Shown one piece after another: positions 6,225 to 11,104 of a stretch of DNA of 64,000 nucleotides. The notes under the pieces are model-generated. The model saw only the letters and a list, made by a program, of their open reading frames with translations. It was not told where the DNA came from and did not search any database. Location: positions 124,001 through 188,000 of the forward strand of contig NZ_AULM01000001.1 in the NCBI RefSeq assembly GCF_000422285.1. The letters run 5' to 3'. The translations under genes and the position numbers were made by a program. Numbering within the stretch: the stretch's first letter is position 1; every line of letters begins with the position of its first letter. This DNA is from Desulfatiglans anilini DSM 4660. GTDB taxonomy: Bacteria; Desulfobacterota; DSM-4660; Desulfatiglandales; Desulfatiglandaceae.

Positions 6225-8246
6225 ATGAGGATCAGCCTGGTCTTTCCCCCCTTTTATCTGGAGCCCATGTACAATCTCCCCCCGCTGGGGCTGGTCAATC
6301 TGGCGACCGCCTTGAAAGAAACGCCCCACGAGGTGAGTTGTCTCGATTTCGTTCTCGAAATTCGGACAGGCGGCCTGAGATTGGGGCCGCACATCTACGA
6401 TGACTGCGCAGAGCGCATCCTGTCCGAATCGCCGGATCTCGTGGGGTTTTCGGCTCAGTGCACCACCTACCCGGCGGTGCTTCAGATCTGCCGGCGGCTC
6501 AAAGCTCGACGCCGGGATCTCAAGATCGTCCTTGGAGGGCACAATGCGGCCTTCGCCGACGAGTGGACGCTGGAGGGGTTTCCCGAGGTGGATGCGGTGG
6601 TCCGCGGCGAAGGCGAACGGACCTTTTGCGATCTGGTCGCGCAATATGCAGCCGGAGGGAGAGGTGAAGGAGTCGAAGGCGTGACCTGGCGCGACGGTGG
6701 CCGCTTTATGCGGAATCCGGACCGGGATCTGGTCGCACACTTGGATGAGCTGCCTTATCCGGACTACGGCTGTCTCCCGCCGCTCGAAATGTACCGGCGG
6801 GCCTGTAACCTGCCGCGCAGCATCGCCATCCTGGAGGCGGGACGGGGCTGCCCTCACCGCTGCGTGTATTGCTCCGAGGCGCGCATGTGGCGCGGACGTG
6901 TGCGGACCTATTCCGTCGAACGCCTGGTGGGGGAGATGGAGAAGGTCCATCGCCTTTACGGGGCGGAGTGTTTTCTCCTGGCCTATGATCAGTTCACAGC
7001 GAGCCGGTCCTTTGTGGAAGGATTCTGCCGGCTGGTATTGGAAAGGGGCCTGGAGCGCATCCCGTGGTACTGCATCTCGCGCTTGGACAGTGTCGACCGG
7101 GAGCTGCTGGCCCTCATGCGCGAGGCAGGCTGCGAAAGCATGTGCTACGGGATCGACTCGGGCTCCAAAAAGACTTTGGCCTTCATCCGCAAACGGATCG
7201 ACCACGGCATCCTCTATCAGCGTGTCGTGGAAACGGCCGAGCAGGGCATCATCCCTACGCTCAGTTTCGTCATCGGTTTTCCGGAAGAGGAAAGGGAGGA
7301 TGTCGACGCCACGCTGACGCTCGCACTGCGGGCGGGCATCGTCGGCAACAACAATCCGCTGATCCAGCTGCCGACGGTCCTGCCCGGGACTGAGCTGCAC
7401 GCCCGTTATGCGGATCGGCTGGTGCGGGAGGTCGACACCTACTTCGCGCTCGGTCTCGAATTCGACGCGGGGCGGAGGCTCGAAGCGGACGAAGCGATGA
7501 TCGATGCGCATCCGCTGCTCTTCAGCAGCTTTTACAACCTGCCCACCCGTGCGCGTCCGCTCGCGGAGTTGAATGCCGTCGCGAGCTACTTTCCCCTGAT
7601 GGTGAGGCTTCTGCCGAAGACCTTCCTGCTCCTCGGTCTGGAACTGGAGATCTCCGTCTCCGATCTGTTCATGGACTGGCTGGAATGGCTGCGGCTTCGA
7701 ACGGCCAGAGAGGCGTGGAGCCTGTCTCCCCAGGACTGTTATCGCCATTTCGAGCCGTTTGTCATCGAGAGGCTGGGGCCTCGCAAAACGGTCCGGATTC
7801 CTCACCTGAAGGACATCCTGAAATATGAGATGCTGTCGCTCGAGGCCGGCAAACACATTTCTAACAAAACCCATTTCGATATCGATTTGAACCGGTTGTC
7901 CGATCTGACACCGAAAAGGGATCAGGGAATCGTGATCGGCGGGTTTGATTTTGATCTCCCCGTGATTATAATGGATCTGAAATCCGGGATCTTTGACAAG
8001 GTCTACCAACCCCAGGAGACGCTGTTGGCCTTCAGGCAGGAAGACGATATGCTGGAAGTCAACGAGATCAATGCGTTTGGCAGGGATTTCCTGGCGCTTT
8101 GCGACGGCGGTTCACCCCTGAAAACGATCGCGCGGGAACTTTACGATCGTTATGGCCAGGGCATGACCCGTGAGGGATTTCTGAAATCCTGTGAAGAAGC
8201 GCTCGAAATGTTGGCTCGGAGCCACCTCGTTGAATTCAGGAGCTGA
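6225..8246 (+). CDS. B12-binding radical SAM peptide maturase with C-terminal PqqD-like domain
   Basis: The 673-residue protein has three parts. Residues 1-160 form a cobalamin-binding-like domain (strand SLVFPPF, then IVLGGHNAAF and VVRGEGERTF). Residues about 195-420 are the radical SAM core, with Cys209, Cys213 and Cys216 in the CxxxCxxC motif GRGCPHRCVYC. The last ~70 residues (around EINAFGRDFLALCDGGSP) resemble the PqqD peptide-binding fold that holds RiPP precursors. The ATG at 6225 follows an AGGAATGAGGAG region; an in-frame start at 6045 lacks support. One hundred bases downstream lies a Cys-His repeat peptide gene, the probable substrate. A role in peptide modification is inferred from context; the chemistry (methylation, cross-linking or epimerisation) is unknown. 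Confidence 0.85.
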   Translation: MRISLVFPPFYLEPMYNLPPLGLVNLATALKETPHEVSCLDFVLEIRTGGLRLGPHIYDDCAERILSESPDLVGFSAQCTTYPAVLQICRRLKARRRDLKIVLGGHNAAFADEWTLEGFPEVDAVVRGEGERTFCDLVAQYAAGGRGEGVEGVTWRDGGRFMRNPDRDLVAHLDELPYPDYGCLPPLEMYRRACNLPRSIAILEAGRGCPHRCVYCSEARMWRGRVRTYSVERLVGEMEKVHRLYGAECFLLAYDQFTASRSFVEGFCRLVLERGLERIPWYCISRLDSVDRELLALMREAGCESMCYGIDSGSKKTLAFIRKRIDHGILYQRVVETAEQGIIPTLSFVIGFPEEEREDVDATLTLALRAGIVGNNNPLIQLPTVLPGTELHARYADRLVREVDTYFALGLEFDAGRRLEADEAMIDAHPLLFSSFYNLPTRARPLAELNAVASYFPLMVRLLPKTFLLLGLELEISVSDLFMDWLEWLRLRTAREAWSLSPQDCYRHFEPFVIERLGPRKTVRIPHLKDILKYEMLSLEAGKHISNKTHFDIDLNRLSDLTPKRDQGIVIGGFDFDLPVIIMDLKSGIFDKVYQPQETLLAFRQEDDMLEVNEINAFGRDFLALCDGGSPLKTIARELYDRYGQGMTREGFLKSCEEALEMLARSHLVEFRS

Positions 8247-8346
8247 CCGCCCCTGAATCCCCTGCCCGCCTCGATGGCTGAGGCGACGATGAAATGAGTC
8301 GGTCCAGAGGTTAACCCCCAGCTGTGTGTGAAAGGAGGTGAAGGCC

Positions 8347-8502
8347 TTGTTGAACCTCAAGAAAGTGGAGAAAAAGGTGTCGTATGCCGCTGGTTGTCAT
8401 GCGCCCGCCTGCCACGCTCCGGCTTGTCATGCGCCCGCATGTCATGCGCCCGCCTGCCATTCCCCGGCATGTCACGCGCCGTCATGCCATGCCCCGGCAT
8501 AA
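8347..8502 (+). CDS. Candidate RiPP precursor: seven Cys-His-Ala-Pro-Ala repeats
   Basis: The peptide has 51 residues. A 16-residue, Lys-rich leader (LNLKKVEKKVSYAAG after the start) is followed by seven tandem pentapeptides. Five are CHAPA, one is CHSPA and one CHAPS, giving Cys-His at positions 17, 22, 27, 32, 37, 42 and 47. The TTG start has AAAGGAGG eight bases upstream, an excellent ribosome binding site; a GTG at 8338 lies inside that site and is unlikely. Synonymous codons differ between repeats (TGT/TGC, CAT/CAC, four Ala codons), which points to selection on the protein. A strong terminator follows at once. The neighbouring radical SAM/PqqD-like enzyme is the likely maturase. I know of no described family with this repeat. 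It could alternatively be a metal-binding peptide. Confidence 0.8.
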   Translation: MLNLKKVEKKVSYAAGCHAPACHAPACHAPACHAPACHSPACHAPSCHAPA

Positions 8503-8522: not shown

Positions 8523-8563
8523 GAACAGGGGAAGATCGCAAAAGGTCTTCCCCTGTTCTTTTT
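8523..8563 (+). terminator. Rho-independent terminator after the CHAPA peptide gene
   Basis: A perfect 13-bp stem (GAACAGGGGAAGA at 8523-8535 with its complement at 8546-8558), a 10-base loop and five T residues lie 20 bases after the peptide stop. This ends the radical SAM-peptide transcript and supports the peptide gene being real. Confidence 0.92.
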
Positions 8564-8746: not shown

Positions 8747-9697
8747 ATGAAGACCCGGATGCTGGATATTCTGATTTGCCCGGGATGCCTGCCGGAGGAG
8801 AGGCCGCTTACCCTGGAGGCGCGGGAGCGGGGTCTGGAAGGCGAAGTGGTCGACGGGGACCTGTTTTGCCCTGGGTGCGGTGCGCGCTATGCCGTATTGG
8901 AGGGAATCGCCCTCCTGGTGCCGGATGGAGGCGCAGCGGTCGAGCGCTCGGTCCAGGCGGAGGCCCGCTACGAAAGCGCTGCGGCCGTGGCTGCCTACCT
9001 GTGGAGCCATTACCTGGACCTGCTCGAAGAGACGGCCGAGCCGACGGCCTATGCAGCGTGGGGGGGGATGCTGAGCGGCGCGGAGGGCCTTTTTCTGGAT
9101 GCCGGATGCGCCGTGGGGAGGCTCGCCTTCGCCATGAGCGGTCGTTTCGATTTTTCGGTGGGGGTCGACCTGTCTTACAGGTTCGTCAAGACCGCTCGCC
9201 GGCTGATGCACACCCGGTCGATCACCTTCGACCTTCCCCTGGAGGGGCGATTGTGTGAGCAGAGGGCATTCCATCTGCCGGCGGAGTGGAAGCCGGAGCG
9301 GGTGGAGTTCCTGGTGGCCGATGCCGCGCGCCTTCCCTTTCGTTCTGATGTCTTTGCGGGGCTCGCGTCCCTCAACCTGGTCGACAAGATGCCGAAGCCG
9401 CTGGACCACCTTCGCGAGATGGATCGGGTGGCCAGGGCCGCGCAGGCGGAGTGGCTCTTTTCCGATCCCTTCTCCTGGTCGACCGACGTCGCAAAGGAAA
9501 GCGACTGGCTGGGCGGGACGGAAAGCGGCCGTTTCGCCGGAAGGGGTCTGGAAAACGTATGCGCCCTTCTGCGTGGGGACGGACAGGAACTGAGGCCCTG
9601 GCGGATCGAGCGGCCGGCGGATGTCTGGTGGCGCATCCGCAACCACGAGAATCACTTCGAAACGATCCGGAGCAGGACCGTCAAGGCGAAGCGATAG
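8747..9697 (+). CDS. SAM-dependent methyltransferase with Trm112-like zinc ribbon
   Basis: The N-terminus is a Trm112-like zinc ribbon with Cys11/Cys14 (ILICPGC) and Cys41/Cys44 (FCPGCGARYAVLEGI). A class I methyltransferase fold follows, with the SAM-binding motif LDAGCAVGR near residue 120. The GCAVGR motif and a later DPFSWS...WLGG segment recall the methyltransferase part of OvoA, which acts on the imidazole of thiohistidine; this likeness is from memory and needs an alignment. The gene follows the CHAPA peptide after a terminator and a repeat fragment, so it needs its own promoter, which I could not identify. The product is 316 residues. Membership in the peptide pathway is plausible but unproven. 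Confidence 0.7.
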   Translation: MKTRMLDILICPGCLPEERPLTLEARERGLEGEVVDGDLFCPGCGARYAVLEGIALLVPDGGAAVERSVQAEARYESAAAVAAYLWSHYLDLLEETAEPTAYAAWGGMLSGAEGLFLDAGCAVGRLAFAMSGRFDFSVGVDLSYRFVKTARRLMHTRSITFDLPLEGRLCEQRAFHLPAEWKPERVEFLVADAARLPFRSDVFAGLASLNLVDKMPKPLDHLREMDRVARAAQAEWLFSDPFSWSTDVAKESDWLGGTESGRFAGRGLENVCALLRGDGQELRPWRIERPADVWWRIRNHENHFETIRSRTVKAKR

Positions 9698-9778: not shown

Positions 9779-11104
9779 TCAGTCTGCAGCCGGAGGATTC
9801 CCGATGTCGAACGGGGCGTAGTCCGTCGGGAAAAAGGGCCGCCTGGCCGGCCCGAGGCAGTGGCTCACGAGGGCCGATCGGTCGGCGTAGTTGAGAAGGG
9901 TGAGCAGGAGTTCGCCGCCGCGCAGAAAACCGAGGCAGCCGGCTGCGGCGCTGATTTCATCGAAGCGGACCACCGCGTCCCGGCGCACCCCTTGTCCGGC
10001 AAGGGCCACAGGCACCGGTTCCCCGGAATGGATGAGACGGGATTCGCAGGGCGTCGAATGATCCGCCGTCACGGCTAGCAGGAGATCGCCACGGGTGGTG
10101 ACGGCGTCGAGGGCCTCGGAGAGGGCCCCGTCGAGGTCTTGAATGATCCGCTTCTTTGCGAGGGGGTCCCCCCTGTGGGCGGCCTCGTCGGGGGCCTTCG
10201 TGTGCACGTGGATGAAATCATGAAAGCCGTCGTCGAGGGCCATGCGGACCCGCCTCCGCAGATCCTCGCCGGGGGCGGCGGTGTCCTTCTCGGGGGTGAA
10301 ATCGAGGCCGAGTTCGTGGGCCAGGCCCGCAAAAACCGCGCCCGAGCCGATCAGGCGGGCGGTCATCCCCCACTTTTGGGGAAAAGGCTCCTGCCGGATG
10401 CGCCGGCCGGAACGCTGCGTGGCCAGAAAATTGGCAGGGGCGCGGCCGCTGGCGAGGCGGCCGCGGTTGATCGGATGCCGGGATAACACGGCGTGGCAGT
10501 GACGGAGGTAGTCGTTCAGGGCCCGCGCCGTGCGCTCGGCGCGTTCGGGCTCCGGGTTGTCCGCGAGCGGGTGGATGCGGGCCATGCTGCAGCCCCGCAG
10601 CATCGGGTCCGAATCCGACACGAAGGGGGACACGGGGCCCTTGAGGACCAGGATGCCGTTGTTCCCGTACGTCCGGTGCAGCTCGATCCGGATGGGGCCG
10701 GATTCGTATGGCGACAGGGCCGCGTACAGGGCATTCCGCTCCTCCGGGTCCAGGTCGATGGTTTTGTGCGAAACCGTGAGGATCGGGATCCCATCTACGA
10801 GGCGGACATGGGAGAGATGGGCGAGACAAAGCACGTCCTGGTCCTGGAAAGGCACCGACGCCCCCACCCCTTCGAGAAGCCCCCGGCCGGGAAAGGCCTC
10901 TCTTGCATAACCGAAGATCAGGTGGTGCGCGATCTCGCTGGGGAGGCATTCCCCCGGGCAGGAGGCGTGGAAGAGTCCATTGCTCCCGAGGGCGGCGAGC
11001 CGGTCGAGATTCGGTGTCTGGGCGGCCTGAAGCGGCGTCCTGTCCTGAAGGGACGGGTAGGACCGATCCCCGAGGCCGTCCAGCAGGACGAGTACGATTT
11101 TCAT
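9779..11104 (-). CDS. apgM: 2,3-bisphosphoglycerate-independent phosphoglycerate mutase, archaeal type
   Basis: This enzyme interconverts 3- and 2-phosphoglycerate in glycolysis/gluconeogenesis. At 441 residues it matches the archaeal-type (ApgM) branch of the alkaline phosphatase superfamily. The N-terminal metal motif is VLLDGLGDRSYP, and the C-terminal metal motif ADHSTPCESRLIHSGEPVP is intact. The expected phosphoserine motif appears as PSEIAHHLIFGY; most family members I recall have Ser-Asp here, so the Glu is a variation. The ATG at 11104 starts directly on the beta strand. It is convergent with the methyltransferase gene. Confidence 0.88.
   Translation of the reverse strand: MKIVLVLLDGLGDRSYPSLQDRTPLQAAQTPNLDRLAALGSNGLFHASCPGECLPSEIAHHLIFGYAREAFPGRGLLEGVGASVPFQDQDVLCLAHLSHVRLVDGIPILTVSHKTIDLDPEERNALYAALSPYESGPIRIELHRTYGNNGILVLKGPVSPFVSDSDPMLRGCSMARIHPLADNPEPERAERTARALNDYLRHCHAVLSRHPINRGRLASGRAPANFLATQRSGRRIRQEPFPQKWGMTARLIGSGAVFAGLAHELGLDFTPEKDTAAPGEDLRRRVRMALDDGFHDFIHVHTKAPDEAAHRGDPLAKKRIIQDLDGALSEALDAVTTRGDLLLAVTADHSTPCESRLIHSGEPVPVALAGQGVRRDAVVRFDEISAAAGCLGFLRGGELLLTLLNYADRSALVSHCLGPARRPFFPTDYAPFDIGNPPAAD

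Follow-up and report, generated by a model that had tools for sequence, protein, structure and literature searches.

The window analysed here, a stretch of 64,000 nucleotides from Desulfatiglans anilini DSM 4660 (contig NZ_AULM01000001.1), carries between a radical SAM gene and a methyltransferase gene a very small reading frame whose product ends in seven Cys-His pentapeptides. This raises the question of whether the frame is a genuine gene, which enzymes act on its product and what they might make of it. The features that bear on the question, all on the forward strand, are the following.

6225-8246 (+): B12-binding radical SAM enzyme, 673 aa, with CxxxCxxC at C209/C213/C216 and a PqqD-like C-terminal domain at about residues 600-670
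8331-8339 (+): ribosome-binding site AAAGGAGGT, read in the sequence, ending 7 bases before the TTG
8347-8502 (+): precursor peptide, 51 aa, with leader MLNLKKVEKKVSYAAG and a core of seven CH[AS]P[AS] units, based on translation, an alignment of 12 and gene pairing
8523-8558 (+): intrinsic terminator between precursor and methyltransferase, a 15-pair hairpin with 8 G-C and a loop of 6, then TTTTTG
8747-9697 (+): SAM methyltransferase, 316 aa, with an N-terminal Trm112-like zinc ribbon, a relative of OvoM/OvsM/OvoA-C

The precursor peptide

The frame at 8347-8502 translates as M(TTG)LNLKKVEKKVSYAAG-CHAPA-CHAPA-CHAPA-CHAPA-CHSPA-CHAPS-CHAPA-stop, with five of the seven units identical. A preliminary description of this DNA had put forward just such a peptide of Cys-His pentapeptides, with a TTG start behind a good ribosome-binding site and a terminator after the stop, and all of this holds, the terminator beginning 21 bases 3' of the stop codon. 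There is an alternative start, the GTG at 8338, which overlaps the ribosome-binding site; the TTG at 8347 is favoured because the start Met of the relatives aligns exactly at this codon in an alignment of 12 precursors, and the presence of AAAGGAGGT just upstream lends it further support. A GGAGG site like that of the window precedes the peptides of many relatives.

Differences among the seven units of the window number 12, 0 and 62 at codon positions one, two and three, and the repeat units of ten relatives show the same pattern (123/74/574), with most differences at third positions, thus it is the peptide and not the DNA that selection has kept. This pattern, along with the existence of homologs, rules out chance or a young, simple DNA repeat. 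Across the 12 aligned precursors, which have 5 to 9 units, no C, H or P of the first five varies, and the leader follows a consensus of approximately M-x-[VIL]-K-x-[VI]-E-[KR]-[KR]. The window peptide is very probably modified chemically after its translation.

The preliminary description further held that no named RiPP family has this repeat, which nearly stands, but has to be qualified as the nearest named peptide family, the NCBIfam model NF038108 (the Cys-every-fifth RiPP peptide CefA), is weakly similar below its cut-off. Like CefA, the peptide is small, RiPP-type and of similar length with a Cys at every fifth residue, and it might be taken for a plain member of that family, given that 12/12 aligned precursors match the model weakly (best 19.5 bits). 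However, these scores are under the curated cut-off of 30 bits (19.3-19.5 for the window, for which membership was rejected), the match may reflect nothing but the shared Cys spacing, and it is very improbable that CefA accounts for the peptide. A genome-wide search of the window's own genome with NF038108 gave no match at E 0.001, and a literature search found no paper on Cys-every-fifth peptides or NF038108.

Conservation with a radical SAM enzyme

In an evenly sampled set of 395 genomes of the phylum, with a threshold of E <=1e-120 for orthologs of the radical SAM enzyme, the ortholog is found in 12 genomes and the precursor profile in 14; 12 are shared, the two genes are adjacent in 12/12, and the co-occurrence has a Fisher p of 3.6e-21. 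The earlier suggestion that the radical SAM enzyme next door has the peptide as its RiPP-type precursor is upheld by this adjacency. Two precursor matches of the same scan look spurious, one in G101 being a TPICH-type repeat without a radical SAM gene and one in G404 lying in a genome without the ortholog. Searches with the radical SAM protein and with the peptide in 61 genomes (its own and 60 relatives) also return nearly identical sets of genomes. The order radical SAM, CHxPx peptide, methyltransferase is found in all 12 loci compared besides that of the window, with the outer neighbours of the cassette common only to the congener G001, bar a few weak or single matches.

A scan of genome contigs for the DNA pattern of three consecutive CHxPx codons, which is blind to the enzyme, gave at least 115 loci. 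Among the matches listed, 19 are leader-bearing peptides and 96 are without a leader, and a radical SAM ortholog lies on the same piece in 15/19 of the former and 0/96 of the latter (Fisher p 1.6e-15). Those 96 of the 115 listed were rejected as chance, low-complexity or arbitrary frames with neither leader nor ortholog; L069 was also discarded as a linked locus, its radical SAM stretch being unrelated and merely 24% identical. The leader-bearing exceptions are four, L133 (which ends at a contig edge), L148, L161 and L092. The genomes of the first three carry the radical SAM gene elsewhere; only L092, which comes from a Bathyarchaeota MAG, has no ortholog in its genome. Here a CHAPA peptide (L092:5169-5318) adjoins a sigma-70-like gene in what is given as a 'chromosome', and chimeric assembly or transfer is possible.

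CHAPS-type peptides that end in a C-terminal tail were also seen as orphans, away from radical SAM genes (L161:767-2927, L210:852-2939, L214:4267-6354), in each case directly 3' of genes for the 2-hydroxyglutaryl-CoA dehydratase D-component (HGD-D) and a BadF-type ATPase.

The named carriers belong to the Thermodesulfobacteriota/Deltaproteobacteria (Geobacteraceae, Desulfuromonas, Geoalkalibacter, Desulfobacteraceae, Desulfobacterales), and the genomes compared are mostly MAGs. A short leader-core peptide is thus conserved as a pair with an adjacent modifying enzyme, as is expected of a RiPP precursor and its maturase, and the window peptide is almost certainly the substrate of the radical SAM enzyme beside it.

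The B12-dependent radical SAM enzyme

The enzyme scores over the cut-off on both the B12-binding (75.9 bits) and Radical_SAM (73.1 bits) models of Pfam, and C209, C213 and C216 are invariant among its orthologs, which is what is expected of a cobalamin-dependent radical SAM enzyme. Its predicted model (mean pLDDT 87) has a fold that matches TsrM, OxsB, TokK, CysS and AprD4, and the nearest NCBIfam model is ApyD (263 bits, cut-off 750). Five further cysteines of the core (C79, C194, C249, C283, C307) are shared by 34-35 of 35 orthologs and by neither of two outgroup enzymes, and it is possible that they act as ligands or catalytic thiols.

The C-terminal tail matches Pfam PqqD with 16.2 bits, below the cut-off, and PqqD matches, all of them weak, are found in 7/14 orthologs (best E 5e-4). 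In the predicted structure residues 596-665 have a strand-strand-three-helix order, and the PqqD-like tail of about residues 600-670 is a candidate RiPP recognition element.

A methyltransferase related to ovothiol enzymes

The third member of the cassette, at 8747-9697, adds to what had been observed in the preliminary description. Its closest solved relatives are OvoM, OvsM and OvoA, which are 5-thio/5-selenohistidine N-methyltransferases, and a profile search of the PDB returns them as the three best (OvsM 1e-31, OvoA 7e-31, OvoM 2e-29). The predicted fold (pLDDT 87) aligns to the three with VIA-align Z of 24.8-25.6 (rmsd 2.4-2.5, 228-235 aligned), all other structures having Z <=18.3, with CARNMT1, the carnosine (His) N-methyltransferase, among the next best. 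Nearest by sequence and, in the structure search, by fold, the protein falls in the OvoM/OvsM fold family. On TIGR04345, the model for the OvoA C-terminal mercaptohistidine N-methyltransferase, it scores 85.4 bits against a cut-off of 170, and it is therefore related to this family without formally belonging to it. At two Geobacteraceae loci (L075 and L088) the linked methyltransferase is missing, and all that their genomes offer is a weaker paralog.

The known pathway starts with OvoA linking the side chains of Cys and His, after which 5-thiohistidine is released by a lyase and methylated at N-pi of its imidazole by the methyltransferase domain (PMC12631010). The system described here shares with the ovothiol/ovoselenol pathway a homologous methyltransferase and Cys (or Se) and His as the proposed substrates, although these are free amino acids there and peptide-borne here, and a sulfoxide synthase there takes the place of the B12-radical SAM enzyme here. 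No OvoA sulfoxide-synthase N-domain was found above the cut-off in 26 carrier genomes, and the matches of 126-137 bits that five genomes from a single genus gave, far under the cut-off of 400, were rejected; another route would therefore be needed.

Probable selenocysteine in a sister family

Weak profile matches in G306 and G434 led to a further set of loci, here called U-type, in which the radical SAM ortholog is followed by a related peptide of the pattern ...PT-UGA-HAP[TS][EQ]SPVRR-stop, with a UGA in the place expected for the Cys of a CHAPT unit. There are 13 such loci, all of one sister family (L184, L186, L202-L209, L211, L212, L219), for example L208, with the peptide MLKVKEVEKKVLHTGCHVPN-TGA-HAPTESPVRR-stop, and L203, with MLQVKEIEKKILATAVNEASTTYVVPT-TGA-HAPTQSPVRR-stop. 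The in-frame UGA aligns with the Cys of the homologs, and in L208 the stretch CHVPN-UHAPT keeps the five-residue register.

The simplest objection is that the UGA is a true stop, the hairpin that follows it an attenuator or other RNA element, and that no selenopeptide is made, and the 13 loci do all come from one family-level group and one radical SAM clade. Against this, the codon is UGA in 13/13 loci whilst the final stops are TAA in 9, TAG in 3 and TGA in 1. Beyond the UGA, codons +1 to +4 vary only at wobble positions or from T to S, with H, A and P invariant; in the stem, codons +6, +9 and +10 (S, TCT; R, CGG; R, AGA) never change and the P codon of this region changes once, whereas loop codon +8 (V) uses three codons.

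The hairpin itself, AUCUCCG-GUN-CGGAGAU, is of bacterial SECIS type and is present in all 13 loci, its loop starting 21 nt after the UGA. The published bSECIS rules ask for an apical loop of 3-9 nt with a G in the first two, a stem of 4-16 bp, a distance of 16-37 nt from the UGA and an MFE of at most -7.5 kcal/mol (PMC13188914). The U-type hairpins fit this model in loop (GUN), stem (7 bp) and spacing (21 nt), which again speaks against a true stop, and the upper stem has an MFE of -7.8 to -8.1 kcal/mol in 11/12 of those folded; in L209 the upper stem has -6.6 kcal/mol and a 42-nt stretch -9.4, and L219 was judged by reading alone. Compared with shuffles, the stability of the UGA-hairpin is ordinary in L184 (z -0.56) and unusual in L186 (z -4.0), and an Rfam scan of four U-type loci found no family. 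The machinery for Sec is also present, with SelB in all U-type genomes (in G455 only as fragments below cut-off) and tRNA-Sec likewise (in G442 only as a weak 50-bit match). A true stop, which would touch the selenium part only, is very unlikely, and these related bacteria appear to encode selenocysteine in place of Cys. Judged from sequence, the predicted precursor, its partners and the putative Sec codon are all strongly supported.

Eight of the first 12 U-type peptides have no Cys at all, and in such peptides the U-H is therefore the only dyad left. The radical SAM genes of the U-type loci form one clade, with L218 and L219 counted as U-type; the L218 enzyme is identical to that of L209, apparently the same genome twice. 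L215 has the radical SAM gene without an adjacent peptide. The methyltransferase is present in U-type genomes but unlinked (and partial in G442), and in the regions read around it (L229-L238) a CysQ/inositol-monophosphatase-like gene follows in 10/11. Some U-type genomes also carry a second, Cys-type peptide, which at L161, L210 and L214 is the one that adjoins the HGD-D/BadF genes; G451, for one, has besides its U-type locus a separate peptide with five CHAPS-type units and no radical SAM gene beside it (L213:6456-6593).

A dipeptidase and other neighbours

A Peptidase_M19 gene is a frequent fourth member, being found in many loci 3' of the methyltransferase or directly 3' of the peptide. Among M19 enzymes are some whose substrates are S-substituted cysteinyl dipeptides (leukotriene D4; GliJ in the synthesis of gliotoxin), and cleavage of this kind would suit a thioether product. 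Neither an M19 gene close to the window's copy nor a C-S lyase within the cassette was observed. Further along the window, 9779-11104 encodes an apgM-like protein, with 292 bits just below the cut-off of 320, which also scores 201 bits on the model for the phosphonoformyl transferase PhpG.

Proposed chemistry

Two lines of evidence favour a chemistry on chalcogen and imidazole: the exchange of Sec for Cys suggests a direct role for the chalcogen, and the OvoM-type methyltransferase one for the imidazole. In the proposed scheme the PqqD-like tail of the B12-radical SAM enzyme encoded next door would hold the leader. The enzyme would process the CH[AGS]P units at each of their Cys-His or Sec-His dyads, the most likely reaction being one that attaches or transfers the chalcogen to the imidazole, without oxygen, to give a thio/selenohistidine-type product. 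The OvoM/OvsM-like methyltransferase would then N-methylate the imidazole, and the M19 dipeptidase, where present, may free small products, in which case the peptide would serve as a scaffold that carries one small unit several times over. The parts of this scheme are not equally secure. The Cys/Sec-His dyad is probably the modified site and N-methylation of the imidazole is on balance to be expected, the chances of a bond between chalcogen and imidazole carbon are evenly poised, and release as a small molecule is conceivable if somewhat doubtful.

B12-radical SAM enzymes mostly methylate carbon, which was counted against the chalcogen-imidazole reading. The enzyme could be an ordinary B12-dependent C-methyltransferase acting in every unit on a carbon of His, Cys, Pro or Ala, with the second enzyme adding N-methyls, and the product a methylated but otherwise linear peptide. 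Several of its solved fold neighbours (TsrM, TokK, CysS, MgmA) are indeed C-methylases, and ApyD, the nearest NCBIfam model, makes beta-methyltyrosine. Such a reaction leaves the retention of Cys in the unit, or its exchange for Sec, unexplained, and PbsB, a B12-radical SAM enzyme of RiPPs, cross-links aromatic side chains instead (PMC12257519), therefore methylation is not the sole outcome in this class. Plain C-methylation is considered rather unlikely. ApyD and PbsB, of biphenomycin-like RiPPs, resemble the window enzyme in having a B12-binding domain and a radical SAM domain that acts on a ribosomal peptide; they differ in their MNIO partner, which was not seen at loci of the window type, and in aromatic motifs where there are Cys-His repeats here.

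It has also to be considered that the peptide is a metal ligand, with Cys/Sec-His-x-Pro units that bind Cu, Zn, Mo or W and are no more than tuned by the enzymes. Regular Cys-His dyads suit metals, and the motif of the unit is the U/C-H-x-P of formate and formylmethanofuran dehydrogenases, UHxP being the Sec motif of these enzymes (PMC13188914). The shared four letters may be convergent, however, U-type peptides with a single dyad would be poor multidentate chelators, and in an unsystematic look no recurring metal transporter or regulator was noticed in the loci compared, which makes metal binding improbable as the function.

There appears to be some precedent for sulfur and selenium chemistry by radical SAM enzymes in RiPPs. 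RiPPs with thio(seleno)oxazoles made by a radical SAM enzyme, which by its title is the subject of Lewis et al. 2021 as cited in PMC13188914, would be one such case, and the radical SAM selenoprotein family TIGR04167 (motif GxxU) is listed in the same paper. There the Sec lies in the radical SAM enzyme, whereas here it belongs to a UHAP unit of a separate peptide. A literature search found nothing on selenohistidine, or on thiohistidine with radical SAM and RiPP. TIGR04167 is presumably the thio(seleno)oxazole RiPP system itself.

Returning to the chalcogen-imidazole reading, a new RiPP family whose Cys(Sec)-His dyads would be converted, without oxygen, into residues of an N-methylated thio(seleno)histidine type stands about as good a chance of being right as of being wrong. 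The fullest version, in which anaerobes would make ovothiol/ovoselenol-like compounds ribosomally, by B12-radical SAM transfer of the chalcogen from Cys/Sec to the neighbouring His, OvoM-like N-methylation and release by a dipeptidase, with the seven CHAPA units as a seven-copy scaffold, is tentative and rather less likely.

Implications

The RiPP precursor family defined here is one that annotation overlooks, owing to its small size and start codon, to which the sister group adds an in-frame UGA. If the reading of UGA as Sec is true, a precursor of a peptide natural product with genetically encoded selenium would be added. The known synthase of redox metabolites of the thiohistidine class uses oxygen; if the thiohistidine reading is true, anaerobes would gain an oxygen-free route to this class, by a B12-radical SAM reaction that would be easily testable on a short repeat peptide.
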